Position numbers and translations under genes: made by a program | Part shown: piece by piece, positions 3,986-64,000 of the stretch | Position numbering within the stretch: position 1 is the stretch's first letter | Layout of the letters: each line of letters begins with the position of its first letter | Notes under the pieces: model-generated | The model's input: only the letters and a program-made list of their open reading frames with translations | Database searches by the model: none | What the model was told of the DNA's origin: nothing | Origin: Sthenelais limicola | Taxonomy: Eukaryota > Annelida > Polychaeta > Phyllodocida > Sigalionidae | Reading direction: 5' to 3' | DNA: 64,000 nt | NCBI GenBank assembly: GCA_942159475.1 | Contig: OW804097.1 | Location: 111,042,582-111,106,581 of the forward strand

Positions 3986-5173
3986 ATGCCACCTAAACTT
4001 CGTGCTAAAGATAAACATGACTTGTCGGATTCTGGATCAGAAAATTCAGAACCGTCGGGAACGGTTAAATCGACTGAAAAGTCGGCGGAGCCGGAGAAGC
4101 AAGATGGCGGACATGGCTCGAAGAGAGCGCGTGTTGAAATTGAAGATGACGTCATTGATGAGGCGGAGACGTCTACTTCTGGTGGAGTGGGCGGAAATGA
4201 TCAGTCAGGCTCGGAAAACTTTTCCGCGAGGGACTGGAATCAGATGTTAGTTTCGGCATTCATGCAGAACTTCATCCAACCTCAAAATCAAGGTGTAGAA
4301 GAGCCTCCCGCCGAGGAAGTTGATCCTTTACAGGCAGAAACTTACCCGGAAGGTGAATTGTGGACCAAGCTCCAAGAAGCCACTAGTAAACAAGAGAAGA
4401 GTAAGAAGCGAGGCCCGGCGGTAGGTCCTCATTTGGCTCTGTTTATTAACAATTCTTTCGAAAAAGGGTTCAGTCAACAAGACCTGGAAGGGTCCATGGA
4501 AGATTATCCGAGGCCTGAGAACGTAGACAGCCTCATGGCCCAGAAATGTGACCAAGACATTTTCAATTCGAAGTCAGTCACAGTCGATAATGTAAGATCT
4601 ACGGATATAACCCTAAGAGCCATGCAGAAAGGAGTTTCTGCTGCGATGATTGCACTAGCCCCAATTGGAGATGTCATTCTCAAACAAGGAAAGAAGAATA
4701 AAGAAATGGACAAGGTAGGCAAGAATTTGCTGGACGTCTATGAATTTCTGGTGAATGTTCATTGCGGCATCTCTTCCAAAAGAAGGGATCTTTTGAAACC
4801 AAAGATTAACCAGACTTATGCCAAGTCGGTGGCCAATGTCAAGGATGAAAATGCAGAATGGTTGTTTGGAGGAAATCTTCAGGCTTCACTTAAAGCGGCC
4901 AAAGCGGCCAACGAGGTTCAGTCTGCCCTGACTCCTCAAGCTCCTCGCCCTAAAGGACAGCAGCCACGTCAACAACGACCCAGATTCCCCTTTAAAGGGA
5001 ACTTCCAAAATATGTTTCAACATGGGTTCGGAGGTTTTCGTCAAAACTTCGCGCAACCAAGGTTCCCAGCTCCACGGTTCCCCCAACAAGGTACAGGGAA
5101 TTATCGTCCCAGATATAGGACCCCTACGCCTAATCCACAGAAGGATTTTCCCAAAGGGTTGGCCAAGCAGTAG
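3986..5173 (+). CDS. DIRS gag-like protein
   Basis: A 395-residue ORF with an ATG start directly after the predicted acceptor. The N-terminal 100 residues are acidic, Ser/Glu/Lys-rich and low in complexity (SDSGSENSEPSG). The middle, residues about 110-310, is a compact, mostly helical region. The C-terminus, residues about 315-395, is rich in Arg, Pro, Gln, Gly and Phe (PRFPFKGNFQNMF), as expected of a nucleic-acid-binding tail. No zinc knuckle is seen. Position and composition match DIRS ORF1 (gag), the presumed particle and RNA-binding protein. The pol frame begins inside its last 40 nt in the -1 register. Confidence 0.7.
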   Translation: MPPKLRAKDKHDLSDSGSENSEPSGTVKSTEKSAEPEKQDGGHGSKRARVEIEDDVIDEAETSTSGGVGGNDQSGSENFSARDWNQMLVSAFMQNFIQPQNQGVEEPPAEEVDPLQAETYPEGELWTKLQEATSKQEKSKKRGPAVGPHLALFINNSFEKGFSQQDLEGSMEDYPRPENVDSLMAQKCDQDIFNSKSVTVDNVRSTDITLRAMQKGVSAAMIALAPIGDVILKQGKKNKEMDKVGKNLLDVYEFLVNVHCGISSKRRDLLKPKINQTYAKSVANVKDENAEWLFGGNLQASLKAAKAANEVQSALTPQAPRPKGQQPRQQRPRFPFKGNFQNMFQHGFGGFRQNFAQPRFPAPRFPQQGTGNYRPRYRTPTPNPQKDFPKGLAKQ

Positions 5174-7098
5174 TAAATCAATGTTCCTCAGACGTGAGAC
5201 TGGATTTGTATCATTCGAGTGAAAATTTTCAGGCAGGTAACATAGCAAATTATGTACACAAGTGGTCAGAAATTACTTCTGATCCTTGGATTCTGGATAT
5301 GATTAAAGGAATAGGATTAGATTTTGATTCTTACCCAGTACAGGGTAGAATTCCTTATCCTTTTAAATTCTCTGAAGAAGAGAGAAGTCAAGTAGAGTTT
5401 GAAGTGTTAAACATGTCATCCAAAGGTGTAATTGAGGAAGCGGTGAATGAACTGGGAGAATACATTTCTAATATATTTCTCCGTCCAAAGCCTGAGGGAA
5501 AGTTTCGAGTCATTCTCGATTTGACAAATCTGAATTTGTGTATTAGCTATGAGCATTTCAAAATGTCTAGTTTTCAAACTGCTTTAGATCTAGTGCAGCA
5601 TAATCGCTGGATGGGATCGGTCGATCTGAAAGATGCTTATTATTCCGTACCAATTCTTCCTGAATTCAGGAAATTTTTTAGATTTTATTGGAATGGGCAC
5701 CTTTACCAATATGTAGGAATGCCTATGGGACTCACTTCAGGTCCCCGAATTTTTACAAAAATTATGGTCCCGGTATTTGCATCTTTAAGAGCGAGAGGTT
5801 TTGAATGTTTTCAATACATCGATGATTCATTTGTGATTGCAAATTCATATGAAGAGTGTAAGGTTGCCATCTTTGAATTGGCTAAACTGTTGGATGAGTT
5901 AGGGTTTACTGTCCATTCCGAAAAATCGGTAATTGAACCTTGTCAGGAGTTAAAGTTTTTGGGGTTTTTGATTAATTCGCAGACCATGACGATTTACCCT
6001 ACTCAAGACAAGATTGAAAAATTTGTACGTTCGGCTCACGATTTGATGGATAAAAGGAAACCAACGATTTGAGAGGTTTCAGGCTTGGTTGGCCTTATGA
6101 TCGCGTATTCAATTTGTATTAAATATGGTGGTGCCCATATTAAGAATTTAGAATCTGATAAAGTGAGAGCTCTGGCTTTCAACAGGGGCGATTTTGATGC
6201 AAAGATGAAAATTTCGCTAGAAGGTTTAGAAGATATTAAATGGTGGTTAGATCATTTTATTCTGGCTGAGAGAGAAATTCATTTTTCTCCTCAAGCTAAA
6301 GATTTGTACACTGATGCCTCGTTGGCAGGTTGGGGTGCCACGATGGATGGAATCACAGCAGGTGGTAGGTGGAAGGAAAATGAAATTAACGATCATATTA
6401 ATGTGTTAGAACTTAGGGCAATTTTGTATGGGCTTCAAAGCCTGGTCTCAGATAGGGACATTCATATTAGAACATTGACGGATAATACTACCGCTCGCGC
6501 TTACGTCCGCAAGATGGGTGGAGTGCGTTCTGAGAAATGTAACAAGGTGGCCCAGGAAATTTGGGCGTGGTGTGAAACGAATAATATTTGGCTGACGCCT
6601 GTTTATATTCTTGGTGTGCTGAATATCAGCGCAGATAGAGAATCTAGAGTGTTCAATGATGACATTGAGTGGGAACTCGGACCGAAATTATTTAAAAGAA
6701 TTTGTAAAGAATTTGATACACCTTGGGTGGATATGTTTGCTTCGCAAATAAATTGTAAGTGTGAAAGGTTCGTGTCTTGGAGACCAGAACCTGAAGCGTG
6801 GAAGCAAGATGCTTTCTCGCTAGATTGGTCTATATGTGGAGGATTAATCTATTGTTTTCCTCCTTTCAGCCTTGCAGGCAAAGTACTGACAAAGGTCATT
6901 CAAAGCAAGATGCTCTGTATTCTGGTCCTTCCGGCGTGGGAAAGCCAACCCTGGGCGGCAACGGCGGGGAACTTGGCAAGCAGAGTGATTCGGTTCGGAC
7001 AGGGCAACCGAAACCTGTTACCTCACGGAAGCCCAAACAAAGTTCAAGTATTCCAAAAAATTCCACTCCTAGCATACCTTTTCTCGCAAGAGTTTTAG
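5134..7098 (+). CDS. DIRS pol: reverse transcriptase, RNase H and C-terminal domain, with one stop
   Basis: The frame opens at 5,134 with no early ATG, so a -1 shift from gag is likely. Reverse transcriptase runs to about 6,070: SVDLKDAYYSVP palm segment, MPMGLTSGPRIF, and the catalytic YIDD at 5,815-5,826. A TGA at 6,070-6,072 breaks the frame after KPTI; the reading continues EVSGLVGL in the same register. RNase H follows (LYTDASLAGWGA; LELRAI; TLTDNTTARAYV; DRESR). The C-terminal region has DMFASQINCKCERFVSWRPE and FPPFSLAGKVL, typical of the domain after RNase H in DIRS elements, often called methyltransferase-like. The context suggests CGA to TGA. Its last 300 nt overlap the recombinase frame. 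Confidence 0.85.
5143..5149 (+). promoter_or_regulatory. Candidate -1 frameshift heptamer GGATTTT
   Basis: In the gag frame this reads G GAT TTT, which fits the X XXY YYZ pattern; the same heptamer is used by some plant RNA viruses. It lies inside the 40-nt window (5,134-5,173) where gag and the -1 pol frame overlap. I do not see a strong stem-loop just downstream, so this is only a candidate. Confidence 0.3.
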
Positions 7099-8054
7099 AA
7101 AAACAGGGAATTGATGAGAAAACGATTCAATTGATTATGCACGCTTGGCGTCCAAGTACGAAACGATTGTATTCTACTTATATAAGAAAATGGGCACTGT
7201 ACTGTGTGAAATTTGATGTTCGGTTATTGAAACCTTCTCTAGGAGAAGTGTGTAGATTTTTACGACATTTAATGGAACAAGGGTTGGGCCATGGAGCCAT
7301 TAACTCTGCACGTTGTGCTTTGAGTCTTATATTGCCTAAGAGTTTAAATGAAGATACATTCGGAAAGAATGGGATCGTTTGTAATCTTGTTAAGGGTGTT
7401 TACGAACTTAACCCCCCTAAACCTAGGTATTCACAGTTCTGGGATGTAAAAGAAGTCTTGAACGAATTGAACGCATGGGGTCAGAATGAGAAGCTCTCAT
7501 TGAAATTGTTAACCTATAAATTGGCTATGTTGTTGTTATTGGTCACGTCTCAACGTGGTCAGACGATAATCCACCTGAGGATTGATTCTATGAAATGTTA
7601 CAGTCAAGAAGTTGTATTTTTCTTGAAAAGTTTGCTGAAGCATAACAGATTGGGCGACCCCCTGGATGTAATGGTCTTACGACCCTATATTCTTAATGAA
7701 AAGTTATGTATTGTGGCCACTGTTAAGGCCTATTTGGCTCGCACAAAAATGTTGCGAGGAGATTGTAAGTTTTTACTTGTTAGTTATATTCGACCTCACG
7801 GGTCGATCTCGAGAGACACTCTGGCACGTTGGACTTTAGCTACATTGAGACTGTCAGGAATTGATGTAAGCAAATATGGTTCTCACTCAACTCGAGGCGC
7901 TTCTGCGTCTGCAGCAGCTAAGTTGGGAATAAGATTAAATGACATTATGCGCCATGCCGGGTGGAAGTGCGCCACTTCTTTTGACAGGCACTACTTTAAA
8001 CAAGTGGAGGAAGCGCCGCGTGTGGCGGACGCGATCCTCAGTTTAGCTTCATAA
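6798..8054 (+). CDS. DIRS tyrosine recombinase
   Basis: The open frame is 418 codons. The first codons overlap pol and lack an ATG, so the true start lies a little downstream or is reached by recoding. The core starts near residue 93 with a SAM-like N-terminal domain (WRPSTKRLYSTYIRKW). Catalytic residues are visible: Arg253 in SQRGQTI, His363 and Arg366 in SHSTRGAS, Trp389 in HAGW and Tyr399 in FDRHYF. This is the full R-H-R-H/W-Y set of DIRS recombinases, which integrate a circular cDNA. Nothing in this ORF looks broken. Confidence 0.88.
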   Translation: MEARCFLARLVYMWRINLLFSSFQPCRQSTDKGHSKQDALYSGPSGVGKPTLGGNGGELGKQSDSVRTGQPKPVTSRKPKQSSSIPKNSTPSIPFLARVLEKQGIDEKTIQLIMHAWRPSTKRLYSTYIRKWALYCVKFDVRLLKPSLGEVCRFLRHLMEQGLGHGAINSARCALSLILPKSLNEDTFGKNGIVCNLVKGVYELNPPKPRYSQFWDVKEVLNELNAWGQNEKLSLKLLTYKLAMLLLLVTSQRGQTIIHLRIDSMKCYSQEVVFFLKSLLKHNRLGDPLDVMVLRPYILNEKLCIVATVKAYLARTKMLRGDCKFLLVSYIRPHGSISRDTLARWTLATLRLSGIDVSKYGSHSTRGASASAAAKLGIRLNDIMRHAGWKCATSFDRHYFKQVEEAPRVADAILSLAS

Positions 8055-22902: not shown

Positions 22903-23925
22903 CTATAATCCAGAAAGATACGTCGAGGAAGACTTGGAAATTGTCAGTTTACGGTCATGAGGGGTGGCTAGATACATCAGCACAGCCAAGCTCGACCAAT
23001 CCCCCATACATTGTATATCCGAGAGCGGGATGCCCAGAGAGTGTAAGTGCTGCGCCCCACCGCGGCGAAGCGAGTGCATTCCAACAGAATCAGCACTCCA
23101 GCCTATCTCGGAGGCAAGTTTCTTTAGGAAGCTGAGAACCGTCGTATAACACAGTGGAGTATCACCACACATAAATAAAGGGGAAGAAGGATCAGCAGGA
23201 TTTGAACGAATATGGGTCAGCAATAGCGTGTGTGCACAAATCCTGAAGTTCGCTGTTAGGGGGTATATAGGAACATCCAAGAACTTGTTGTGATATTTTA
23301 GCGTCTTGGAAGATCTAATGCGAAGGACAACATGATCAGCATTCACGATCACATCTGACCTTCTGACCACATGGCACTCGACGGAGGCGAGTGAAGCCGC
23401 AGTCTCCGGTAACAGGTTTGATTTCCTCAGTAATGTAGAAAAAGACAGAACAATGGCACACCAAGAGGCAGCGCTACTTGGATTGGAGTAACACACAAAT
23501 TTAGCCATTTTCAATAAGTCAATAGGGAGTATAGGAGACTTCTGGGAGACAGCGGTCCCCAGGGTTTTCCTTAGGCCTTCCAGTACCATCTTGATAAGGA
23601 AGGAGTCCCTAAATGGGGCATCATATCCATAACATTTGTGAAGAATGATTATCGCCGATAAGTAGTTGTTGATAGTCGAGAAGACAGAGGTCTGGCCCTT
23701 GAATACTAGGAACCTCGCGACAGTATTCTCCGACGCTGGTAAGGGAACTAGGCCGTATTCTGCACAGAACTTGAAATATAAGGCCCATTGAGAAGATCTG
23801 GCCGACTTAGTGGACGAAGCCCAGGCAGACGAAGTGATCTCTCGCACCCTATAATCCAACGAGGCCAGTCGGTCTGCAACATAGGGAGTGACATACAGCA
23901 TCAGAATACACATAGCCGGACTCAC
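22903..23925 (-). CDS. Ngaro-1w tyrosine recombinase
   Basis: 340 codons open; the first codon is GTG and the first ATG is four codons on, so the true start is probably there. It overlaps the end of pol by 77 nt in the +1 register. An N-terminal domain (SSAWASSTKSARSSQWALYF) is followed by the catalytic core: Arg in STLLRKSNLLP, His284 and Arg287 in MHSLRRGGAQ, Trp310 in MGDWSS and Tyr318 in VLMYLATP. All catalytic residues are present. It would insert the circular DNA copy of the element. Confidence 0.88.
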   Translation of the reverse strand: MSPAMCILMLYVTPYVADRLASLDYRVREITSSAWASSTKSARSSQWALYFKFCAEYGLVPLPASENTVARFLVFKGQTSVFSTINNYLSAIIILHKCYGYDAPFRDSFLIKMVLEGLRKTLGTAVSQKSPILPIDLLKMAKFVCYSNPSSAASWCAIVLSFSTLLRKSNLLPETAASLASVECHVVRRSDVIVNADHVVLRIRSSKTLKYHNKFLDVPIYPLTANFRICAHTLLLTHIRSNPADPSSPLFMCGDTPLCYTTVLSFLKKLASEIGWSADSVGMHSLRRGGAQHLHSLGIPLSDIQCMGDWSSLAVLMYLATPHDRKLTISKSSSTYLSGL

Positions 23926-25762
23926 AGACTCTAGATAGACGATCTGCTAAGTGGTTGAGGCTACCAGAAATGTGCCTGGCCGTAATATAAAAATTATAAA
24001 TAGCACTCAACCAAAAAAGGTATCGCAGGAGAACCATACAGTAATCATTGGAGCTAACGCCCTTGTTAATGAGGCCCATGGCCTGCGTGTTGTCGGTGAA
24101 AATCACAATGTGGCGATTTCTCCATAGTTCCTTACAGCGATCTGCGGCCACTACAAAGGGTATAGCCTCTAGAACGTTGATATTCTTGGCATGTGCAGCA
24201 TCAATATCAATGTTGATCCAGTGGTCATGTGCTGGGTCACAAAAAGAAAAATCAGTAGGGACTGAGTCGCTATTATAATAGCCAGCTACCCAATCACTCG
24301 ATGACACAAGACCATAACCTCCTAGCGAGGCGTCAGTGGTCCAGGACAGTTCGGGAGAAGGATTACGACCTATGACACATGAAGTTCCATTAAACCATTC
24401 AGAGAACTCTGTCCACCAATTCATATCCAGCAGGAAGGACTCTGATAGATGTATTCTCACATTCCGCTCTGGGAGACCTTTTAAGAGAGCTATGATGCGA
24501 TGACTGAAGGTCCTCCCGCCTCTGACGACCTTGGCGCAGTGGCACAGGATGCCGCAGAGACGTTGAAGTTGGCGCTTAGTCGCCCTGGAACGACCTTTGA
24601 AGAAGGCTAGCTCGTCGTGTAATCTGGTTAGCTTCTCCTGAGGAAGTGAAAGAGTCATAGAGGATGAGTTGATCTCAATGCCTAAGAAGGTCGTGACTTG
24701 GGCAGGGGAAGAGCATTTCTTCCAACTGATGAGGAAGCCTAAATCACCTAAAAGGGTAATGAGTTCCATCTGGACGGTCTGGCACTCAGCAAACGTAGAG
24801 CCTAACACGATGAAATCATCAAGGTAATTTATTATCTTAAGGAAACCTCGCCTATGCATGGCTCTCACCACGAAGTCACTCAAGGCTGAGAAAATAAATG
24901 GGGCGCAACTGAGGCCAAAACATAGCCTAGTGTCATGATAATACACACCCTTCCACTCCATGCCCTGAAGCTTCCAATGGGCACTACTTATACATACTGA
25001 CCGGTAGGCTGCTTTCAGGTCAACAGAGGCCATGTAATCACCGTCCTGTAGCATGCTGCAAACCGAGTCAATTGTGTTGAAATTGAAGGGCCTTGCTGTC
25101 ATATCCATGTAGTTGTTAATTGATTTCCCCAATGGTTGACGACAATCTGTTATCGGGCGAAATGACCCATCCTTCTTGGGAATAGCACCTAACGAGTGCA
25201 CGCACAATGGGGGAGAGTCTGTAACAGAAAATTTCCCATCTTTCAGTTCTTCACAAATAAGCCGATCAATGAAGGAAAAGGCCGGATCGGTAAGGACTGA
25301 CTTATAATTAGCACAGCGGTAGCCTGGTACAGACACACCTGGATCGACGATGTCGAATCCGTTTAACACACCGTTAGCAATGAAGTTGCGATAATACACA
25401 TCAGGCTCTAGGGAGAGCTCGTTAAGCCAAGCAAAGCATTTCAGTTGACTCCTAAGACCACCGACATAGTGGACATCAGCGATTCTGTCACGTAGAGACC
25501 AGCCTACAGTATAAGTATAAGGCAAACTCGGGGCATCTAAGTAGGAAAAAACTGAGTAATCGGGCACACACACCGATCCAAGCCTGGAATCGGGGTAAAT
25601 ATCACACATCCTCTCACCATAAGCAACTTGAATGGGTGGAGAAGGTAGCACATCGACACAACTTGAAGAATTAGATGAATCATTCGATGAAAAACAGCCG
25701 ATTCCCAACCCGAGACCTCCATCTTGGATGTTTTGCCCGGAAGTCTCGAGCTGAGCGAGATT
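23849..25762 (-). CDS. Ngaro-1w pol: reverse transcriptase and RNase H
   Basis: The frame continues directly from gag after a TGA at 25,765-25,763 and has no nearby ATG, so it is expected as a gag-pol product. Reverse transcriptase: GAIPKKDGSFRPITDCRQPL, SVDLKAAYRSV, LCFGLSCAPFIFS and the catalytic YLDD at 24,826-24,815. RNase H: WTTDASLGGYG, INVLEAIPFV, IVIFTDNTQAM and HLADRLSRV. These are the four acidic blocks of the domain. There is no integrase and no methyltransferase-like extension, unlike the DIRS element at 5.1 kb. Confidence 0.88.
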   Translation of the reverse strand, partial: NLAQLETSGQNIQDGGLGLGIGCFSSNDSSNSSSCVDVLPSPPIQVAYGERMCDIYPDSRLGSVCVPDYSVFSYLDAPSLPYTYTVGWSLRDRIADVHYVGGLRSQLKCFAWLNELSLEPDVYYRNFIANGVLNGFDIVDPGVSVPGYRCANYKSVLTDPAFSFIDRLICEELKDGKFSVTDSPPLCVHSLGAIPKKDGSFRPITDCRQPLGKSINNYMDMTARPFNFNTIDSVCSMLQDGDYMASVDLKAAYRSVCISSAHWKLQGMEWKGVYYHDTRLCFGLSCAPFIFSALSDFVVRAMHRRGFLKIINYLDDFIVLGSTFAECQTVQMELITLLGDLGFLISWKKCSSPAQVTTFLGIEINSSSMTLSLPQEKLTRLHDELAFFKGRSRATKRQLQRLCGILCHCAKVVRGGRTFSHRIIALLKGLPERNVRIHLSESFLLDMNWWTEFSEWFNGTSCVIGRNPSPELSWTTDASLGGYGLVSSSDWVAGYYNSDSVPTDFSFCDPAHDHWINIDIDAAHAKNINVLEAIPFVVAADRCKELWRNRHIVIFTDNTQAMGLINKGVSSNDYCMVLLRYLFWLSAIYNFYITARHISGSLNHLADRLSRVCESGYVYSDAVCHSLCCRPTGLVGL

Positions 25763-26857
25763 TCATGCCGAGGGTTTATCCTCTTTCCGATCTTTCACAC
25801 GACACGAAAACATTGGGTGGCGGTACTTGCACTGGCCACAAATGTGTAGTTTGGCACATCTACTAAGGAAACAGCCCTTAGAATTATAATTATAGCAAAT
25901 ATCATGCTGCCAGTCGTCTGGAACAGGGCTGACGTGAGCAGCCGAGTCCTCCCGGACCCTGCCGAAGCCTCTGCCCGACTTCCGGCCACCCTGACGCCAT
26001 GACACCTGAGACGAGGAAGAAGTGTTATTGCTCGTCTTATCGTCCGGTTTCTTCCTCGAATATAAGCCACTGAGATAAATACCGGCACCAAAGGTATCTG
26101 GGGGTCCAAACTGTAGGTTCCCAGCTATCACCTGGTCCACCACATGATGATCATAGGATACACAGCCGAGTGTGGAGAAGCTAGCAGACTCTATCAAGTG
26201 CCTACCGACATATTGCATATGCGCGAGATAGCCTCTGCAGTCGCCATTAGATGTAAGGATATATTCAAACACGCCCAACATTCCAACCATTAGCTCCGTT
26301 GCTGACAACTTAGTATGGTCCACCTGCTTCATGGGCCATAGGTACGATTTAAACTGAACATAATACTCTGGTCTCCACTCCAAACCTGTTTTGGGGGGCA
26401 ATCCATCGTTGACATTCAAGGACAGTTGATTAATAGAGCTGACTAGGTCTACCATAGGAGCGTCACCGGACGCCTTGTGTGATGGCGGCGATCTCCTCTC
26501 GATACGTTCCAATCTGGCCAGGATCGCCTCCAAGGCACCGGCGCCAGGATTATCCTTACCAGGACTACCCTTACCAGGAACTTTCTGGGTGTCTTTCACC
26601 TGTTTCTCTAGGAATTCCAAATAAGCTGGATCAGCTCTGTCTGTGAAGCCGCCGGGGAGAGTCATGGCGTAGTTAGTATCAACGACAGGTAAGTCCGAGT
26701 TCTCTTCACTTGTCTCCGATGAATCACTAGAAATACTTGAATCGGAAGCCTCAACCCCAGCTAATAGCGTAGCAGCAGGGTCTAATATATTGCAACGACT
26801 GCCAAAAGGAGGTGAATGCACGAATTTACACTTGGAACACCTGCCCTTCGGAGGCAT
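25763..26857 (-). CDS. Ngaro-1w gag with Cys/His clusters
   Basis: 364 residues from an ATG (MPPKGRCSKCKFVH). The N-terminus has a CSKCKFVHSPPFGSRC cluster and then a Ser/Asp/Glu-rich stretch. Residues about 150-260 form a folded region (WRPEYYVQFKSYLWPMKQ). Near the C-terminus a second cluster (ICYNYNSKGC, FLSRCAKLHICGQC, RHPMFSC) fits CCCH-type zinc binding, likely for RNA packaging. The same arrangement is seen in the gag of the element at 33.8 kb, so the two are related. It ends with TGA, after which the same frame enters pol. Confidence 0.8.
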   Translation of the reverse strand: MPPKGRCSKCKFVHSPPFGSRCNILDPAATLLAGVEASDSSISSDSSETSEENSDLPVVDTNYAMTLPGGFTDRADPAYLEFLEKQVKDTQKVPGKGSPGKDNPGAGALEAILARLERIERRSPPSHKASGDAPMVDLVSSINQLSLNVNDGLPPKTGLEWRPEYYVQFKSYLWPMKQVDHTKLSATELMVGMLGVFEYILTSNGDCRGYLAHMQYVGRHLIESASFSTLGCVSYDHHVVDQVIAGNLQFGPPDTFGAGIYLSGLYSRKKPDDKTSNNTSSSSQVSWRQGGRKSGRGFGRVREDSAAHVSPVPDDWQHDICYNYNSKGCFLSRCAKLHICGQCKYRHPMFSCRVKDRKEDKPSA

Positions 26858-26883
26858 AACCTAGCCGACATAGGAGAAGAAAA

Positions 26884-33200: not shown

Positions 33201-36200
33201 CTTAAAGTGCCTTTCTGTCTCTTTTCTCTGTCTCTCTCTCTCCCTACTTCTCTATCTCATATTTCCTTGGTATGATCATAAACTGCCTCCCTCTCAGCTC
33301 TCCCGCCCTTGATATAACAATTCAAAGTGTTGATAAGGGCGTAAAGCAACCAATCTCACTCACTCACTCACTCACAAGCCAAAATATCATATTTGTTATC
33401 TTGTTTTGTCTGATACATATGGGATTTGCACATGACAGTCCTGTAGCACTGCTATATGAATGAATACCAAACTACTGAGTGACTGATATTAATAAATTGA
33501 ACTTTCTTTCAAAACTACACTAATTGAAATAAAACCCAGTAGTGCTGACTGCATTAGGCCATGTATGAATCAGAATGCAACGAGGTGCAGTTCCGTTCAC
33601 TATTAATATGTGAACCTAGCCTATAGAAGAATATATATTTCATAACTGAAGATTTTCTGTTGTTACTGAGAGACCATGGTGCACCAACATAGCACCATAG
33701 CTAAATGCATGATAAACAACAATGCTGACTGCTTTGCAACTCCCACCACAGCCCATTGGGCAATGTGTATAGCATGGCTTTATGCCATGCGTGTGCATTG
33801 TTGCGAACCAATCACCTCCCACCTACCGCAGCGACCTCTACCACACAGGCGCTGCACTACCCACTCATACTCTCACCCTCACTCACTTCACCTCTTGCCA
33901 CCACAGCGATCACTTAATTTATCTTGGCAGAGTGAAGATCCTAGCTGACTGCGCGCACCACACACGCCAGCAGCATCATCACAAATGCGCATTTTGCTGC
34001 CCAAAAAGCAGAGAGAAAGGTCTAGGTGCTCCAGATATAGTATTAGACTCAGTATGACTGGAAGGAAACGAAGAAGCCGCCGCTCTAAGAGCTCAGCACC
34101 CAAAGTCGCCAGTCAGGTGACGGTGGTCGCCCCCGCCGGCGATAACTCCATACCAGTCGAGGTGGAAAGCTCCCCCGCGAAGAAGGTCAAGACCCGGGCC
34201 AACAAGAAGCTGGACGACCAGGTGAAATGCATGGAGGCCTCGGTCGAATCATTAAAAGGTACCGTGGATAAAATGGCGCAACAGCTTGCAACAGTGGTGC
34301 GTCATGCGGCCGGGCAGGCCAAATCGAAGTCTAAATCCAGACGGAGGAAAGAGCCAGAAACCGAGTCAGAGACTAGCGAGGAGGAGACCGAAGAAGAGTC
34401 GGAGAGTGAACGCGAACCTACCCCCCCCCCCAGGCGAGGCAGACGTACCAGCAAGCACCGGTCAAGCCGTCGAGGTCCGAGGTCAAAATGCCTGACATAC
34501 TCAAGCGCCAACTCGACAGTGACAGATTCTTGGAGAGAGAAATGGAGAGGGAAAAGGCAACCTCGGGCCTCCACGGTAAGAACCATGTGATTTCTGACTT
34601 ATTATCATCCAGAATATTTGCCAAGCCGTATATGTTTATCAATAGGGAGGGTATCACCACGGTGAAACAAAAGGTAGACGCTAGAGGGAACATGACCCCG
34701 GTGGAGTACATAGACGCTTTCCTCACCCTCTTAGATGACCCCAGGGGCTATTACCGCGAAGATTACTATGACATGTTTGATCATCTTAGGAATGTAATTA
34801 GGGACTCTCTTGACAGGCCATGGGCCGCAGTGCGCAGGTGGTCCGACTACATTTGGGACTCCGTCGAGAGCGGCCTAATCTGTTGGGGAGATAAATCTAG
34901 AATACAAGAAGAAAGAGTACGGTTGTGCCTCACTGCCGGTGCAGCAACACCTTTGTCCGGGGCCTATGGCGGTACACACGGGACCTCAAACAATAGGATT
35001 AGTAATCATAGCACAGCAAGTAGGGGAGGCTCGGGTCAAACAGAACTGGTATGCAGGGCTTTCAACTCACGAGCAGGGTGTAGGCAAACAACTAGTCACC
35101 CGGAAGGGTCAATGTATCTTCTTCTTCATATTTGCTCATACTGCGACTCCGTCGGCAAGAACTGTTTACATTCAATCGGGGAGTGCATGAGAAAGATCAC
35201 CCACGCTAACTCTACAGAGAGGGGTGGCAACAGGAGTAACACAGGCAGTACAGCCTCTGTCACAATGAATCGTAATAGCAATCGTAATAACCAATACTCT
35301 CAGTCATTTTCCAGTAATCAGCAGCCAAAAAACGAGTAGCTGGCGCCTCAAGAACTTGGAACTTGGAGGCGCCGCCATTCCGACCCAGTGCGAGTCAGGA
35401 CAGTGCCACGCCCACTACACGTGCTAGCGTTGTTGTTGTTGACAGGCCAGCTCTCGCCGCTCGCGAGACCTCACCACAAGATGGCCCCCCCACCACGAGA
35501 CACACGGCATACGATGACAATGACAAGACCTTATACCGTCCTCCTGCATTGCATGCATCTAGCACAGTCTCCAACACCAAAATGCGAGTAGGTACAAATG
35601 AATACTTTGACAATGTACGTTCGATTTGCGCCGGGAAGGTCGAGAGAACTGACGAAGACTTCTCCCCGCACGCATATGTTGACCATCGCAAGGAGACATG
35701 GCCTTGCATGTGTATCGATGACTCATATAGTGTTCACAGACGTATATACTCCTCCGTTCGTGAATCGGGCTTACCCAATGCACTTGGCACTAAGATTGAA
35801 CTCCCCACTAAACTAAATCTCGATAAATGGAGAATGTATCTCTCAAATAATGATGATGAACGCGAACTCTGTGATATGATCGCATATGGTTTTCCCATGG
35901 GCTACTTGGGCCCCACCTCGCACTACGACAGTGGATTGAACCACACAAGCGCCGATGCTTACTCTGACAAAATAGATGATTTCATAAACAAGGAAGTTAA
36001 ACTTGGCGGACTTGTCGGCCCACTTGACTCGCCCCCCTTTGACACTTGGTATCACTGTGCGCCGATGATGTCAAGGGAAAAACGAGAATCTGATGCACGC
36101 AGGGTAATAATTGATCTCAGCTACCCCGAGGACAGATCAGTCAACGCGTACCTCATGAAGAATAGCGTGTGGGGGAAACAGAGGCAACACTCTTTACCTA

Positions 36201-39200
36201 CCGTCGAAAGTTTGGTGGAAGAGTTGACAGATGTAGGCCGCGGGGCATTTATGAGCACTATAGACATATCGCGAGCATACAAAAATTTCAAATCTGACCC
36301 ATTAGATTGGCCCCTGCTATGCCTTAAATGGAACAACAACTACTTTCTCGATGTCACAATGCCGTTCGGATCTCGCTCATCGTCGTGCCACATGCAACGG
36401 GTGGCTGATGCAATTGTGGCCATACTACGCAGGGAGGGGATATCCAGTCGCATGTACCTGGATGATCTCGTGATTATATCAAAAGATGAGCAATCGGCCC
36501 GCAAGCATTATGATAGGGCGATTAAACTCTTCGAAGAACTCGGCCTCCCGGAGGCTAGCGAGAAGAGGCAACCTCCTGCTACTGCCGTCCGCTGGTTAGG
36601 CATAAACATCGATGCACCGTCTATGACCCTAAGCATACCAGCCGACAAGGTGAAACAAACGCTCGACCAAGTCGCCAAATACGCAAAACGACGCTCCATG
36701 TCTCGCAGGGAACTGCAATCACTTATTGGTTCGTTGATACACGTTGCTAAATGCGTGGGGCCTGCCCGCCTCTTTGTCAGTCGCCTGCTCGACGCTCTCA
36801 GGGAAATGACAAAGAAGTATACAAACATCTCTGCAAACATGCGCAAAGACCTGCAGTGGTTTACAGAGTTCTGTGCACAATGGAACGGGAAGGCAGTGAT
36901 ACCCGCGCGGGAATACACGAAAGTGATCGAGGTCGACGCCTGCCTGTCGGGTATAGGGGGAGCCGACGAGACTCGAGCGTATGCGGCCCAAATAGCCCCT
37001 GTAGACAAAGGTGTCCATAATATTTCTGAACTTGAGGCCGTGAATATACCCGTGGCATTGCATACATTAATTACTGACGCTGATAGAGGGGGACATATAC
37101 TCATCAAGTGTGATAATATTGCCAGTGTGTGTGTATTTAGAACTGGGAGAGGAAAGAACCCCGTCATAGTAGAAGCGGCCAGACTGGCCTGGATGGTGCA
37201 AGCCCTGTTCGACATCCGGGTCAGCTATGAGCACATAGCTGGTGAAGACAACGTAGTCGCTGATAATCTCAGTCGTGCCCACATAGACGATAATCATAGA
37301 CTTAAAGCAGTTAAAAGTGTCCATGATAAATCTCTTGAACTTGTACAGCCATGTATGTTTGCTGTTCATAATGCCCGTTTTTCATTACCCTCTAGGGCCA
37401 ATGCTAGATCGGCTGATGTCCAGAGCGGCGATACGACAGTCACAGGCATGGGCGACAGGCACAAAAGAAAACAGACAGGCGGCTCTCAGACGATACCAAC
37501 ACTTCGCCAGGATAGTGGGCATGGACCCCACTAAACCCACCTATATCATGATATGCACGTATATCGAGTTCCTGCGTGAGACCATAGCATCTCCAAGAAC
37601 TATACGTAACCACCTGTCTCACATACGTACCACATTCAAGCTGAACCATCTTCCTACAGACGCGCTTGACCACCAAAGAGTGAAGTGGGCCCTCCAGGCG
37701 ATCGATCGCGACAAATCCTTCATCCCCAACGCCAAACTACCCGTATCAGTCCACATAATCAGGCAGGCTATACTAGTAATGGACACGAGTAATCCCATCC
37801 AGCACACTCTCAAGACCGCCATACTAGTTATATACTATGGCGGGCTCAGGCAATCGGAAGTACTAACGCCTACTGCCCGCAAATTCGACCCCCTCGTCCA
37901 CCTGACTAGGCAGGACGCACAGGTCTCACACGACAAGGTGACCATCACCATCAAGTCGGCCAAAAATCTGCAATCAGCGTATCAGTCCAAACAAGTGACA
38001 CTCCACGCATCGGACGACAAGAGGTTCTGTGTAGTCAAAGCCATGAGCCATATGCTAAGAATCGTCCCTACAGCACACCCTAAGCAAGCATGCTTTATGT
38101 TTCCACGCACACGCGACCCCATGACTGCCACGTTCGTCGCCCGACAGTGGAAAGACGCGCTGGTGGCCATGCGGGTCCCACACAAGCAATACACACTGCA
38201 TAGCTTGCTGAAGGCAGCCGCTACAGACGCCTTCGCGGCTGGATGTTCATCTTTACAAATCCAGAATTATATTGGCTGGACCTCAGAGGCATATAGGTCC
38301 TACATCCGTACTGATGATAACCCAGTCAACCAAGCACTAAGGAGAGCAATAAGCTCACCCCGGCCCTAGAATATCTGCTCACAAGCAAAGACTATTAATC
38401 ATCTTAAATTCCTCCCACCCCCCCATAAATATCAGCCACTCGGCTCACAAAAAGACTAGGCCCTCAGGCAATGAACTGTGGCATTGCCACCAACGAACTA
38501 CCCACAAGGGTTAAAACATAATAACAGGCTGAACCAATACAGCTCTGTTTCTTAAAATTACATATTACTCATATTACTTCCTTTTATATTCTCACTCCAC
38601 ATCCCCCTCCCCAACATCATACCACATACCCAAAATTGGCAGTCTTGGCTAATTACCTAATTTTATTATAATTTAAAACTTCATCAATTCAATTTTAATC
38701 ACAATCAAATCAATTTATTTTAACTCCTTTTTATTATTATATTTATATAAATTATATCAAATCAAATAAAAATTTAATTTCCCAAGGCTGCTTTCAACTC
38801 TTCCTTTCAATCACTTAAATGGTTCGGCAACAATGTGTATAGCATGGCTTTATGCCATGCGTGTGCATTGTTGCGAACCAATCACCTCCCACCTACTGCA
38901 GCGACTTCTACCACACAGGCGCTGCACTACCCACTCATACTCTCACCCTCACTCACTTCACCTCTTGCCACCACAGCGATCACTTAATTTATCCCACCCA
39001 CCCACACCTAATTCTCATCATTTCATTCCTCCCTACTAATTACCTAATTTTATTATAATTTAAAACTTCATCAATTCAATTTTAATCACAATCAAATCAA
39101 TTTTACCAATTTTACATCAAACCAATTTATTTTAACTCCTTTTTATTATTATATTTATATAAATTATATCAAATCAAATAAAAATTTAATTTCCCAAGGC

Positions 39201-56183: not shown

Positions 56184-57740
56184 AGTAACATCATAGCTTG
56201 TGGCGTCCCTCAGGGCATTAGGACCTATCCTGTTCTCTATATATATCAACGACATCCCGCAACAAGCGAAACATTCCCATTTGCAATTATTTGCTGATGA
56301 CACTATTATTTGTGCCACAGGAAAGAATCTAAATACCATCTGCCTACATTTACAGAATGACTTAAACAATATTATGCTCTGGTGTCGAGCAAACAAAATT
56401 TCACTTAACGAAGGGAAGTCGAAGGTTATGACATTTCTTGATAAGCCCTTGCGGAGGTCCAATTGGTTGAGCAAATCCTCTGACCACACACTGTATATTG
56501 GAGAGAACCAACTTGAAGAAGTCAACGAGTATAAATACTTAGGGACTGTCGTCGACGGTGCCCTTTCCTTCAACAAACATCTTTCTAGTGTAAGGAAAAA
56601 AGTATCGCATAAGCTTTGGCTCTTCAAACATCTCCGGAGCAGGCTAAATGTCCATCTTAGTAGTCAAGTCTACAAATAAACTATTTTACCTCTTTTAGAC
56701 CAATCTGACATATTTAACGACTCAGCACCAAAATCCAAATTACAATTTCTTCAAGTACTTCAAAATAGATCACTTAGAATGATAACAAGATCCAATAGAT
56801 TTCAAAATACAGATGAGTTCCACAGACAATTTGGCCTGCTCCCTCTTAAACAGCGAAGAAGACTCCATATTATGCAGCAAGCCTTTAGGTGTAGGCATAA
56901 TGTGAAAATGTTAAAATCTAACTCCATAAATACGCGTCAACACAATCCAGATAGGTTATCGTTCAAATGCCCGACCCCACGACTTGAGCTGTTAAGAAGA
57001 TCTATTTATTATAAACTTCCACTCTACTGGAATTCCCAGTTCAAACAACTGACACTAATAAATCATTCTCAAACAAAATCAAACCAAATATAATCTGGAC
57101 TGATAATAAATTCCTCTACTAAACTAGTTTGAGCACTAACCACTGCCTTCTTAAGTAGTGACTCACAAAAATTACCAAATTAACTATTTCCAGTATGAGT
57201 GTAAGTACCTAGAATTTCATTAACTTGTCTCAATTGACAAGTGGTATCGTCTCGTCTCGTTCCTCCTCAAAGATTTATGCGAATTGATATGTATGTATTT
57301 TTGTAGATAGTTTCCTTAATCGATGGCACTCTTCGTGTTCATCACCATTGTGATATTCTAATGCCACCCGATGCGAATTATGTTTGTTTATATATGTATA
57401 TGTGTATATATATATGTGTATATATATGTATACATAAACTTATCTTATATAACCTTTGTTAAAATAACAACAAACTCACTCAGACCTAACTGGGTCTCCC
57501 TCGCGTCGGTGTGTATTTGTTCTCCTTATGAGTTATATCTTGATTGTTTAGTTTGTTGTCTGAAACCAACATAAGTAAGGGCCACCTGCGTGTCGTCGAC
57601 GCAAAGGTGTATTGTTACCCTTACATAAATTTAAACCTGTAGTGTCCGATAGGGCTTGAAACCCTCCCTATGACTGGGAGCTTAGACCCATCGACATTGC
57701 CATTAGGCATAGTAAAAGTTTCAACAACAACAACAACAAA
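56184..57740 (+). mobile_element. 5'-truncated LINE inserted in arm C
   Basis: Arm B is continuous at the equivalent place (40,925-40,930). The insert starts within the reverse transcriptase just before GVPQG and ends after a (CAA)n tail near 57,720. A 650-bp 3' UTR contains a TATATATG microsatellite near 57,390-57,430. 5' truncation plus a simple-repeat tail is typical of CR1/Jockey-type LINEs. Confidence 0.75.
56200..57093 (+). pseudogene. LINE reverse transcriptase C-terminal part
   Basis: A frameshift lies just after GVPQG. The reading is then open from LGPILFSIYINDIPQQAKHS, with the catalytic FADD at 56,290-56,301, LNEGKSKVMTF and NEYKYLGTVVDGALSF. A TAA at 56,677-56,679 follows QVYK. 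The same frame then continues with LQVLQNRSLRMITRSNRF and LPLKQRRRLHIMQQAF, the conserved C-terminal region of these enzymes. Non-functional because truncated. Confidence 0.78.
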
Positions 57741-60660: not shown

Positions 60661-61915
60661 TTAAAGAAAAAAGTTGGAAATCTGAGATGGTATCATGGAT
60701 ATATATGGAGGTGATTTGTCAGTGATTGAAGGCCTACTGCACTAATGGCTTTCCCGGACCTGGAGCAGGCATCCTAATTAATGGGACTATATATAATGGC
60801 ATTTTGCAGTTTAGAACGAGAGGCTTTCCCTCAGTTTGGAGGTACTCTCTCAACTCTGAACCTAGACTGAACAGCCTTCATCTAATTTGGACTTAATTCA
60901 AGCCAAAATCGACCAAGGTCCAAAGTATTTATTAGCAATGAATCTGCAACTTTGATTAAAACTTTGACTATTGCAAATTGGCATTTCGTCCTGAGGTAAT
61001 TCTGTCTGTGTTGAATAAAATATTTAATGTAGATCTATATTTGGAAAAATATCTCTCTTTTGCTCATTATAGATCTGCAAATGGCAATCCCCATCCCTGT
61101 TGTGATTAATGGTGAAAATCAAGTTTGATCTGCTTTTGGTGGTGGGGTCTAAGTATGTACCATTCCCTTAATGTTGATCAAAGTTCAAGCTAATTCTGCC
61201 CTAGATAAACCTGTAAAAATAATGAACATAGTGTTAGGAAAATGATTGTAGAGTTGCGAGATCTGAACAGATACCACACTACCATATGAATACATGGATG
61301 CAAGGGTAATTAAGGGAGAGGGGAGAGAGAGAGCATGCATGAGACAGACAGAAAGAGATAGAAAGGGAGGGAGAGAGAAGTGACAGAGGGAGATAGGGCG
61401 CGGGGTCGGGAGAGGAAGAGATCTGTTTCATAATGAATAGTTGGATAGCTTTGTGTGAGAAAGAATATCTCACATCCACGATAATGTTTATTAGGATATG
61501 ATTAACAATTGTTTTGTCCCAAATAGATCAGGATATCTAGATATGTAATAGGAAATATCCACATATTTTTTCTAAAATATCTATTCATTTTCCAAGATAT
61601 TTCAACACATTTTCAATGGAACTAATTGATATTCTATTATCAAGACACAAACTATCTTGGACTTTGGAAAAAAATTCTTTGCCTGAGTCACTTGCTCATT
61701 TTCATATACTTCTATGTGGTGTCTGAGTAGTGGCCAGTAGACTAGCACTGAGTCCCTGAGGGGTGATGTCAAAATAGGGTTGCGCTGGCTGCAACGGCTG
61801 CGACCATGGTCGCGTCCAAAGTGGGCTTGTAGTCGCATCCAGCTGACAGACCAGAACATATGTAACAACCAGGCTGTGCCCAAGTCACAGGCAGGTCGCA
61901 GCCAGAGTAGCTGAC
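60661..61915. other. Outer flank of arm C and 5' flank of the terminal LINE
   Basis: To about 61,180 it matches 12.27-12.78 kb inverted. A purine-rich GAGAGA/GACAGA tract lies at about 61,311-61,420. No exon recognised in the rest. The sequence at 61,760-61,860 is GC-richer (GCAACGGCTGCGACCATGGT) and might already belong to the LINE. Confidence 0.4.
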
Positions 61916-61946
61916 TTGTATGGATATCTATATATCTATCATGATA

Positions 61947-61957
61947 AAGATGGCGGC
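61947..61957 (+). promoter_or_regulatory. YY1-like AAGATGGCGGC motif in LINE leader
   Basis: AAGATGGCGGC is the consensus bound by YY1-type factors. It is found near the start of several mammalian LINE leaders and housekeeping promoters. Its place about 105 nt before the probable ORF1 start fits a start-site element. Its ATG would open an unrelated short frame. Confidence 0.4.
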
Positions 61958-62062
61958 AGCGAGGTGAGACGCTTCTACGGTGCTCGCAGGCGATTTACTC
62001 AGAACAAGGGAAATAATATAACCAAACTCCTCCGATCTAGGATAATCTTGTGTGTAAAGTGT

Positions 62063-63298
62063 ATGGACATGTCTAGGAACAATTCTAGATCATCAAGATC
62101 TTCTAGAAACCTAGGATCGGTAAATTTATTCAGTGACAAGGACGTACGCTCGATCAACAACGATATGTTTACCAACGCGCCATTAGACTCTCAGTCGCAG
62201 ATCAACAACAGCGATGTTTCGTCCCAAAAGGGAGATAGTTGCCAACAATCGGACAGTTTATGCTATCAAGGGCCTAGTCTACAAATATCTGGTCCTCCAC
62301 CAAACGGATACCCAATCGATCCTTCACAATTTGGTACCCATTACCAATATCCTTCTTCTTCAAACAACCAACCCCGAAATGGAAGAATGACGACTGTCGT
62401 GCCGGCTGCAACAGCTATGCAAGTCTGCCAACAACAACAATACCAGCAGAATCAACAAGCCTCTATGCAGATAAGTCAATACCATTATGATAATTTCATG
62501 GCTGGTGAATTTATGTGCAAGTTTTTGAAAAGGGAAGAGAAAATGGACGAGTTGCTGCTGGGATTCTCTAACATGCAGAAATCGTACAACCAGGTGCAAA
62601 CCTTAGCTGTAACTAACCAAACGCATATTTCAACGTTAAATGAAAGCATGAAACGTATGTCAGATGAACGTCTGAGAGCAGATGACACTATCAACCAAAA
62701 TCTGACAAGCTTGCAAAATAAAATAGACGATCTTTCAAACAAAGTAAATGACAATAAGAACGCGATCGATTCAGCCAAGTTAAATGCGCAGTTCCCCCCA
62801 CTAGGACCAGGACCAACCCCACCCAACACCCATTTCCCAACCTATAACGCAGTAGGTAATCAGAATGCAGGCACAACAAATGCATATCCCTCGGAGAGAC
62901 CAAGGGACTTCAGAATTATTATTAGGGGGGTAGAAGAGAAAGATGGGGTCGCCCTAGACAAACAAATCATCGATCTTTTCAAACTAATGAATCTGAATGT
63001 CAATTTCAGTAATCCTGAAAGGTTGGGTAAACCAAGACCGGCAGCCAATGCCAAATACCCGCGTCCAATAAAAGTTACCCTCCCCACAATCAAACTTAAA
63101 ATCGAAATTTTCAGGTGTCTAAACAATAGCAAAAACATCCCGGCTTTATCTAACATCAGAATCTCCTCGGATTCAACCGAGGAGGAACAGGTCTATCTGT
63201 CCGAGGCGAGAACGATCGCCAATGCCTCAAAATCAGTGCATAAATTAAATGCAAGGCCTAAAGGACCACCGACGGAGTGGCATTCCAAGGACACATGA
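62063..63298 (+). CDS. LINE ORF1 protein (coiled coil, RRM)
   Basis: The frame is open from 61,916, but the ATG at 62,063 (MDMSRNNSRSSRSSRN) is the likely start because the leader motif precedes it. It encodes 411 residues. The N-terminus is Ser/Asn/Gln-rich and disordered (QVCQQQQYQQNQQ). Residues about 150-245 form a coiled coil (LNESMKRMSDERLRADDTIN; LQNKIDDLSNKVNDNKN). A Pro-rich linker leads to an RRM (RDFRIIIRGVEEKDG) and C-terminal domain (RLGKPRP, RPIKVTL, IRISSDSTEEEQVYL). This layout is that of LINE ORF1p, an RNA-binding trimeric chaperone. The stop TGA overlaps the next ATG. Confidence 0.75.
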   Translation: MDMSRNNSRSSRSSRNLGSVNLFSDKDVRSINNDMFTNAPLDSQSQINNSDVSSQKGDSCQQSDSLCYQGPSLQISGPPPNGYPIDPSQFGTHYQYPSSSNNQPRNGRMTTVVPAATAMQVCQQQQYQQNQQASMQISQYHYDNFMAGEFMCKFLKREEKMDELLLGFSNMQKSYNQVQTLAVTNQTHISTLNESMKRMSDERLRADDTINQNLTSLQNKIDDLSNKVNDNKNAIDSAKLNAQFPPLGPGPTPPNTHFPTYNAVGNQNAGTTNAYPSERPRDFRIIIRGVEEKDGVALDKQIIDLFKLMNLNVNFSNPERLGKPRPAANAKYPRPIKVTLPTIKLKIEIFRCLNNSKNIPALSNIRISSDSTEEEQVYLSEARTIANASKSVHKLNARPKGPPTEWHSKDT

Positions 63299-63747
63299 GT
63301 CCTTTGTCCAATATGTATCAGTGTGACATTTCATCCGATGACATAACAGCTAATTCTGCGGAACAGCTGTTCCAAGTTAAGAAGGCAATCATGTGCAATG
63401 CTGATCAATCCTTGATAGACAGAATCAAGTCTGTGAAAAATCCTTATGTGGCTAAACGCTTAGCCAATCAGGTACCCGAATCAGACAACTGGAATGAGGA
63501 CGTAGCATATATTACACTACTTGACTGTGTAAGACTGAAGTTTGAGCAAAATGACCAATTAAAGACCCGTTTAATGGAGTACACAAAGGCTGCAACATTC
63601 TACGAAGCCACGATGGACCCCCACTACGGGTGTGGGTTTCACCTCTCTGACGCTATAGGCCTAAGCAAAGACCAAATCACTACGCACAAAAACATTGGAG
63701 GTAAAATACTGGCCAAAGTCCGCTCTGAACTCCCCGATTCAGGTTGA
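63277..63747 (+). CDS. NADAR-domain protein carried by the LINE
   Basis: The frame is open from 63,277 (GTG). The first ATG, at 63,295, forms ATGA with the ORF1 stop, so re-initiation or a -1 shift could both supply it. Counting from 63,277: FQGHMSPLSNMY (3-14), SAEQLFQVKKAI (27-38), LRLKFEQN-like VRLKFEQNDQLKTRL, then FYEATMDPHYGCGFHLSDA, and IGGKILAKVRSEL at the end. These are the hallmark blocks of NADAR (YbiA/COG3236) domains of about 150 residues, which act on NAD/ADP-ribose-linked or riboflavin-pathway compounds, including removal of ADP-ribose from guanine in some members. The whole domain is present and unbroken. Confidence 0.75.
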   Translation: MAFQGHMSPLSNMYQCDISSDDITANSAEQLFQVKKAIMCNADQSLIDRIKSVKNPYVAKRLANQVPESDNWNEDVAYITLLDCVRLKFEQNDQLKTRLMEYTKAATFYEATMDPHYGCGFHLSDAIGLSKDQITTHKNIGGKILAKVRSELPDSG

Positions 63748-63767
63748 TCACTTTGAAGATCGATACA

Positions 63768-64000
63768 ATGCCCTGTTTTGAAATTCTGCTCATCGGAGAC
63801 TCGAGAGTAAGGAATTGGGAATCTCCAATTCAATCTTTACTGAATCAATACAACTGCTTCGACATTAATTTTACCTGCCTCTCTCTGCCAGGTGCAAGGC
63901 TCGGTGACATCGCCAACGAAGCATTCAAAAGGTATAGATTCAACCAATTTGATCTCTGCTATATGCTTGCGGGAATCAATGAATTAACCGAAAAACTTAA
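63768..64000 (+). CDS. SGNH/GDSL hydrolase-like ORF, N-terminal part
   Basis: From the ATG at 63,768 the frame is open to the window end (77 codons). MPCFEILLIGDSRVRNW holds SGNH block I (GDS, nucleophile Ser12). PGARLGD gives the block II glycine, and LAGINEL the block III Gly-x-Asn (Asn71). The catalytic Asp/His of block V would lie beyond the edge. Such esterase-like domains occur in ORF1 of some CR1-type LINEs, where their role is unclear. The frame is +2 relative to NADAR, with only 20 nt between stop and ATG. Confidence 0.65.
   Translation, partial: MPCFEILLIGDSRVRNWESPIQSLLNQYNCFDINFTCLSLPGARLGDIANEAFKRYRFNQFDLCYMLAGINELTEKL

Follow-up and report, generated by a model that had tools for sequence, protein, structure and literature searches.

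The stretch analysed here, called the window in the following, comprises 64,000 nt of the annelid Sthenelais limicola (contig OW804097.1; C4:111042582-111106581 in our coordinates), the genome of which amounts to 1.13 Gb in 161 contigs, with C1-C9 measuring 68 to 162 Mb each. The right end of its plus strand (61,944-64,000) is occupied by the 5′ part of a long interspersed nuclear element (LINE), the endonuclease-reverse transcriptase (EN-RT) part of which lies just beyond the window edge. This copy encodes a NADAR domain and, behind it, the start of an SGNH-like hydrolase. Here we describe the gene order of the element, its repetition in the genome, its recent spread, the purifying selection acting on it and the retained catalytic residues of its NADAR domain, and we discuss what such a domain may do for a retroelement.

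A damaged LINE copy with NADAR and SGNH-like frames

An earlier note, made from the letters of the window, had described a LINE-like element with a NADAR domain and an SGNH hydrolase in consecutive overlapping open reading frames (ORFs). The features are collected in Table 1. The locus that continues the window copy past the window edge (L009) carries on the same strand an 857-aa frame matching the Pfam families Exo_endo_phos (2.1e-10) and RVT_1 (7.3e-39), which confirms the LINE-like character. The NADAR domain is complete: it matched Pfam PF08719 at 1.2e-18 (68.4 bits, cut-off 35.1) and, in the PDB, the NADAR structure 8bau at 2.3e-9 and YbiA of E. coli (2b3w) at 2.1e-4. Compared with a large protein database, the window NADAR had no match among 38 candidates.

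Table 1. Features of the LINE copy at the right end of the window (positions in the window)
Feature	Position	Strand	Basis
LINE copy 5′ end and leader	61944..62062	+	homology to siblings starts at 61,944-61,947
N-terminal and middle part of ORF1, with Q/S-rich leader, presumed coiled coil and RRM region	62063..63298	+	ATG at 62,063; stop-to-stop frame 61847-63298
RRM region of ORF1 (approximate limits)	62893..63265	+	ORF1 alignment; marginal profile match to LINE-1 ORF1p
Junction without ~94 bp found in sibling L031, separating ORF1 from NADAR	63265..63266	+	DNA alignment of L009 with L031
NADAR domain (C-terminal part of ORF1 in siblings)	63295..63732	+	Pfam NADAR; frame 63262-63747
SGNH-like hydrolase ORF, start only, open at window end	63768..64000	+	frame ends at L009:3003, 230 aa stop to stop

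The frames are consecutive as described, but the overlaps did not stand. The window ORF1 is truncated by a frame change at ~63,265. Its nearest sibling, L031, aligns with it in two blocks, L009 549-1847 with L031 106-1407 (94% identity over 1.3 kb) and L009 1847-3230 with L031 1501-2924 (90% over 1.4 kb). The RNA recognition motif (RRM) region and NADAR are in a single frame of 534-625 aa in seven of nine sibling loci (L031-L034 and L036-L038); of the other two, L039 retains some of the RRM region in a shorter frame, and the frame of L035 lacks this region. Separate ORFs for ORF1 and NADAR by design are thereby ruled out, and the apparent overlap in the window arises because this copy was broken by the loss of ~94 bp and the frame change. 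The ATG of the SGNH-like ORF lies 20 bases past the NADAR stop at 63,747, so that no overlap exists here either when counted from the ATG. At the 5′ end, homology of L032, L034 and L038 begins at L009:526-529 (window 61,944-61,947), although these three loci extend 79-103 bases further upstream.

ORF2 of the window copy is also interrupted, the 857-aa frame starting ~1.37 kb after the SGNH frame in L009. Near its end, an inverted pair of 36-37 bp (L009 6892-6927/7341-7377) flanks a MITE-like (miniature inverted-repeat transposable element) insert, which suggests that a small transposon inserted there. Between the SGNH-like ORF and ORF2, a tandem repeat of ~145 bp was observed (L009 3173-3514); one stretch of L031 matches it twice.

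The earlier note had further proposed a coiled coil and an RRM in ORF1. No Pfam RRM or LINE ORF1 family was found in the window ORF1 or in seven ORF1s of other copies, all seven of which (574-827 aa, stop to stop) gave NADAR and no second family above its cut-off. A profile of 13 sequences of the group (A3) matched LINE-1 ORF1p (2yko/2ykp) marginally, at E 0.0045. In the siblings, a presumed coiled coil, a marginally recognised RRM and NADAR form one ORF1.

Six further ORF2s (948-1,081 aa) from other loci all contain RVT_1; five of them have an endonuclease family at E <= 0.01, L013 just below its cut-off, and none was found for L024. The reverse transcriptase (RT) motif reads GVPQGSIIGP in the window copy, aligned with GTRQGCPLSP of human L1, and the other loci have motifs similar to GVPQGS-LGP, a form which we take to be the Jockey superfamily type. 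Tx1 is a clade of the L1 type, and G-RQGCPLSP is common to the Tx1/L1 clade; an RT of the L1/Tx1 type was ruled out by the motif. The RT is hence classified as probably Jockey-type, on the basis of this motif. A fragment of another LINE RT was noticed at window 56197-56679 (RVT_1 9.7e-12), the best segment of which is 46% identical to ORF2 of L014.

Assignment of the SGNH-like ORF, the start of which the earlier note had read here, rests on motifs, namely blocks in which S, G, N and D-x-x-H are conserved; it is a putative SGNH hydrolase. Pfam recognised 0 families in the window ORF. Residues S25, G55, D201 and H204 are invariant in the eight aligned sequences. The Asn of block III occurs only in the window sequence, with Cys in the other seven; lineage-A siblings of the window copy keep the Asn. 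One of the eight members matched PF13472 weakly and under the cut-off (E 0.0086; 17.0 vs 32.9 bits), while Pfam and NCBIfam scans of the alignment gave nothing above cut-off. Searches of the PDB returned three weak, unrelated matches for the window ORF and three for the alignment, among which a sialate O-acetylesterase/lysophospholipase (E 0.82) stood behind two unrelated ones. The ORF also resembled P0002, a database protein described below, only weakly (E 0.17).

Copies, lineages and selection

A genome search with Pfam NADAR brought up 5,561 candidates at first look; of the 150 that were scored, every one was above the cut-off (103.7-119.1 bits). Most scored copies sit in open frames of several hundred residues, and matches occur on all nine large contigs. 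NADAR as a single captured gene was ruled out by these genome-wide matches, and contamination by their presence on C1-C9 and the small contig C46, adjoining LINE ORF2s. A query with the window NADAR led to 4,453 candidates, of which 150 were scored (identity 100 to 47%); for the window SGNH frame, scoring covered 150 of 1,708. Among the listed NADAR matches, 118 of 150 have a listed SGNH match 3′ on the same strand, the gap ranging from -15 to 787 bp (median 38.5); no partner is listed for the other 32, and no pair is arranged in any other way. The EN-RT search yielded 55 rows from 53 scored of 24,201 candidates. In 39 of them, a listed NADAR match lies within 6 kb on the 5′ side and on the same strand, none is listed for 16, and the wrong arrangement was not seen. 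The unlinked matches may be truncated copies, relatives that lack NADAR, or copies whose partners fell below the limit of the list. An RT downstream, repeated copies in the same order and a NADAR profile match, on which the earlier note had staked its description, were all found.

We read 20 loci of 10 kb, hand-picked for diverse frame lengths around strong NADAR matches from the 150, a choice that places relatives without NADAR outside the sample. Comparison of ORF2 in 18 loci revealed six lineages that are 25-40% identical to each other: A, the window copy; B, L010/12/18, L017/20 and L023; C, L013; D, L014/15/19/25/27/28/29; E, L022 (with L021 by DNA); and F, L024/26. A profile of the SGNH alignment (E <= 0.1) finds the ORF in L009 (A), L013 (C), seven D loci and L021/L022 (E), whereas at this threshold the nine B and F loci and L011, which is D-like by NADAR and rearranged, gave no match. 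The ORF is hence present in four of six lineages and was not found in two. In a 13-row ORF2 tree, the SGNH-bearing rows fall on one side of one branch (100/99). All rows of this tree carry NADAR because the loci were picked for it; therefore the tree cannot separate gain from loss of this domain. One more locus, L043 (C4:136820800-136823800), is lineage-A-like; a single long frame spans its RRM region and NADAR, and its SGNH frame, as read, lacks the N-terminal Ser block.

Recent spread of the group is evident from near-identical copies: L019/L028 share 98.3% identity over 7.2 kb, L024/L026 99.3% over 6.3 kb, L015/L025 99.4% and 99.2% over 4.8 and 1.8 kb, and L021/L022 97.6-98.7% in three blocks, the blocks of a pair totalling 6-7 kb. 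The members of each of the four pairs share their 5′ ends, and their tails are A-rich (L019/L028, L015/L025, L021/L022) or of the TCTAAA type (L024/L026). Their flanks differ where readable, the 5′ flank of L015 and the 3′ flank of L024 consisting of N. Target-site duplications were not found in these four pairs, shared words being at most 7 bp long. The 5′ ends of L021/L022, L024/L026 and L009:526, from three lineages, start with AAGATGGC- or ACATGGCGG-like sequences. Human L1 starts with a YY1 site, which these starts resemble.

Selection was assessed as the ratio of nonsynonymous to synonymous substitution rates (dN/dS), calculated by NG86 on codon alignments; several dS values exceed 1 and are rough, and the ratios are biased upward because pairwise values mix the active life of the copies with decay after insertion. 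For NADAR, the ratio could be computed in 6 of 26 pairs (0.182, 0.075, 0.050, 0.039, 0.062 and 0.089), synonymous sites being saturated in the other 20 at dN 0.11-0.46. The corresponding values were 0.066 and 0.081 for ORF2 (2 of 16 pairs) and 0.038 for the SGNH-like ORF (1 of 6). In a comparison of the parts of ORF1 over eight hand-chosen pairs, NADAR (0.028-0.080; 4 of 8 pairs) and the RRM region (0.026-0.043; 4 of 8 pairs, from copies other than the window copy) evolved slowest, against 0.09-0.26 for the N-terminal part and a far looser 0.19-0.34 for the C-terminal tail (5 of 6 pairs). In this comparison across copies, which the earlier note had proposed, NADAR is under purifying selection (dN/dS 0.03-0.18), about as strongly as the RT.

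It would be very improbable indeed that NADAR is an assembly artefact or a passenger, i.e., a functionless piece of a captured gene. The damage to the window copy would fit such a reading, but dN/dS is far below 1 in every computable pair, and the stop-free frames and wide distribution of the scored copies given above also speak against it. Selection at about the strength seen for the RT, across lineages as diverged in ORF2 as these, means that the chemistry or the binding of NADAR matters to retrotransposition.

Three further matches to NADAR lie in stand-alone 162-aa frames (G000 C1:94855254, C1:89380390 and C1:66983187), which may belong to a host gene exon or another element. Elsewhere in the window, three retroelements that look DIRS/Ngaro-type by eye were noticed at 3986-8054 (+), 22903-26860 (-) and 33949-38369 (+), with gag-like, RT and tyrosine-recombinase-like frames.

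Possible function of the LINE-borne NADAR domain

The structure 8bau is presumably the P. nicotianae NADAR of PMC11543638, since its residues match the numbering of that paper at an offset of +2. On this basis E34, K41 and E115 of the window frame, all present, correspond to E43, K50 and E125. A survey of 41 rows (37 from this genome, L035 excluded, and 4 from others) contained 30 distinct sequences, 26 of them from this genome, to which the following counts refer. The equivalents of E43, K75, W89 and E125 are kept in all 26, and the E125 site is Glu, neither Asp nor His, in every one, as is characteristic of the YbiA subfamily. The K50 site is K in 16 copies, R in 9 and I in 1; the D130 site is D in 23, N in 2 and E in 1; and the W133 site is W in 20 and Y in 6. 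Both catalytic Glu and several ADP-ribose contacts are hence retained, and other contacts are not.

NADARs reverse the ADP-ribosylation of guanine in DNA (PMC11543638, PMC11125620), and in a comparison with macrodomain and ARH hydrolases (PMC11833690) they were the one family able to take ADP-ribose off RNA guanosine. Such an activity would suit a domain fused to a protein that presumably binds RNA. We favour, at a probability of roughly 45%, the reading that the window ends in a damaged copy from a large group of NADAR LINEs with a Jockey-type RT, in which ORF1 packages RNA, NADAR is a guanine ADP-ribose hydrolase and an SGNH-like protein is its partner. The fixed gene order, the recent spread, the selection and the retained catalytic residues given above speak for it, as do the database proteins P0001, P0002 and P0003 described below. 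The ORF1 protein, with its coiled coil, RRM and NADAR, would package the RNA of the element. NADAR would be a working hydrolase that strips ADP-ribose from guanines of the particle RNA or the fresh complementary DNA (cDNA), which appears to be the most likely of the activities considered, and copying could then proceed even from modified templates. The separate SGNH-like protein would accompany NADAR in four of the six lineages; its targets are probably acyl groups or lipids, which have also been proposed for the ZfL2-1 esterase of fish.

Several findings weigh against this reading. The R79 and Y84 contacts of the solved NADAR are retained in none of the 26 copies, and the W133 site is Y in six, the window copy included. 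Arg at the K50 site (9 of 26; lineage D) corresponds to a mutant, K95R of the E. coli C7 NADAR, that hydrolyses in vitro without rescuing from DarT1 (PMC11543638). The RRM match is marginal, and the SGNH-like ORF stays under its Pfam cut-off, with Cys in place of the block III Asn in seven of eight sequences. A DarT search of the genome gave 0 candidates, judged against a single control genome, which matched, without a calibrated background; pierisin/CARP-type and other writers were not searched.

The altered contacts and the Arg of lineage D, together with the direct fusion of NADAR to the RRM region, would also fit a domain selected for binding RNA, ADP-ribose or an ADP-ribosylated host protein, with no enzymatic activity. 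We regard such a pure binding module as somewhat unlikely, because Glu at the E43 and E125 sites is invariant in all copies across the diverged lineages, and the counterpart of the E125 site in the E. coli C7 NADAR, D171, is required for turnover (PMC11543638).

Roles with riboflavin-intermediate or NAD-type N-glycosides have been proposed for some NADAR proteins. The LINE domain could likewise act on another N-glycoside, be it a riboflavin intermediate, a product of NAD breakdown or a free derivative of ADP-ribose, and serve metabolism around the particle instead of nucleic-acid repair. The physiological roles of eukaryotic NADARs, animals included, are stated to be unclear in PMC11125620, and specificity varies between NADARs, which leaves room for such substrates. 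On the other hand, the LINE domain is placed in ORF1 behind the RRM region and the NADARs tested in the cited papers act on guanosine ADP-ribose (PMC11125620, PMC11833690), so that we consider this unlikely.

A third alternative would be that NADAR shields ORF1p, ORF2p or host proteins by taking off ADP-ribose attached to them by host PARPs. The PARP-family protein ZAP itself is not known to have ADP-ribosylating activity. ZAP restricts human retrotransposition (PMC4441479), which would give such shielding a purpose, yet the cited passages report NADARs on guanine bases and no activity on proteins (PMC11125620, PMC11543638, PMC11833690); we judge this shielding to be quite improbable.

Hydrolysis of guanine ADP-ribose by the LINE NADAR hence remains the preferred reading. 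The earlier note had suggested that the element undoes an ADP-ribosylation-based host defence, and the conserved catalytic residues and the selection are compatible with this. That the domain erases ADP-ribose which the host has placed on guanines of the element's RNA or cDNA is a possible but tentative claim. Guanine-modifying enzymes are known in animals, namely the pierisins of butterflies and CARP-1 of clams (PMC11209040). If the claim is true, ADP-ribose serves certain eukaryotic hosts as a defensive mark on the nucleic acid of retroelements, and these have evolved a way to counter it, in parallel to phages, which also carry NADARs; the recurring SGNH pairing, within one protein in P0002, would then point to another enzymatic step at that particle. 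The claim names concrete candidate substrates, LINE RNA and cDNA.

Relation to known systems

Relatives were sought in a protein database of 5.77 billion sequences, of which the group-profile search scored the 8,000 candidates sharing most words. P0003 (653 aa; E 1.5e-81 to the group profile; NADAR 99.9 bits) and P0001 (1,114 aa; NADAR 93.3 bits) have NADAR behind coiled-coil and RRM-like stretches, in P0001 both and in P0003 the latter judged by eye. P0002 (461 aa) combines SGNH PF13472 (44.4 bits vs 32.9) and NADAR (74.9 bits) with CCHC-like motifs seen by eye; the order of the two domains is the reverse of that in the LINEs, a hint at more than one origin of the pairing. P0004 is a presumably bacterial NADAR protein. 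Among viral contigs, three NADAR loci were found, and the one that was read (L040) has phage-like neighbours by eye. A NADAR tree that included P0004, a phage row and foreign LINE rows was not resolved in its deep part and so does not tell one origin from several. Two LINE-ORF1-like proteins, P0005 and P0006 (coiled coil, RRM-like by eye), have UPF0029 (PF01205; 70.8 bits in P0005) at the place of NADAR. From these, LINE ORF1 may swap C-terminal accessory domains.

NADAR in a LINE ORF1 is not wholly new: in Crassostrea gigas, NADARs of the YbiA family were found in ORF1 of several Tx1 LINE families from Repbase (PMC12477816). These elements share a LINE with NADAR in ORF1 with the group described here, but they are Tx1 compared with the Jockey-type RT motif here, a difference judged by description and not by sequence, and the cited passages mention no SGNH ORF. 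As far as our literature search reaches, the earlier note was right that no LINE with the NADAR-SGNH pair had been described, with NADAR alone known from the C. gigas elements; the search for NADAR, YbiA or DUF1768 in LINEs, judged mostly on titles and abstracts and with preprints and most subscription papers outside it, recognised nothing beyond PMC12477816. Within the same reach, the Jockey-type RT, the SGNH partner, the lineage depth and the selection are new. Another retroelement with a NADAR domain is the Gypsy type of Ectocarpus, where it is located in Pol and the authors suggest processing of transposition RNA (PMC12477816).

The SGNH-like ORF can be compared with the esterases of ZfL2-1 and of the L2/CR1 type IV ORF1s, which it resembles as a candidate SGNH-type hydrolase encoded 5′ of EN-RT (PMC3905857, PMC4120745); their Ser, Gly, Asn and Asp-His residues are also present in the window lineage. 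There, the esterase is within ORF1, whereas here it is a separate ORF 3′ of the coiled coil-RRM-NADAR ORF1, unlike the fused type IV, and three of the four lineages have Cys in place of the block III Asn. The esterase of the fish LINE ZfL2-1 is hydrolytic and binds negatively charged phospholipids, and its ORF1p is dispensable in HeLa cells (PMC3905857). A survey of 448 ORF1s of the Jockey superfamily has no NADAR in its table and esterases in two vertebrate groups only (PMC4120745).

With the DarT1-NADAR toxin-antitoxin pairs and the YbiA hydrolases, the LINE domain shares the NADAR profile, the E43, K50 (K/R) and E125 sites and the YbiA-type Glu, whereas the cited passages describe no RRM or retroelement context for them (PMC11543638, PMC11125620). 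The elements reported here add a NADAR LINE group to the known accessory domains of LINE ORF1.

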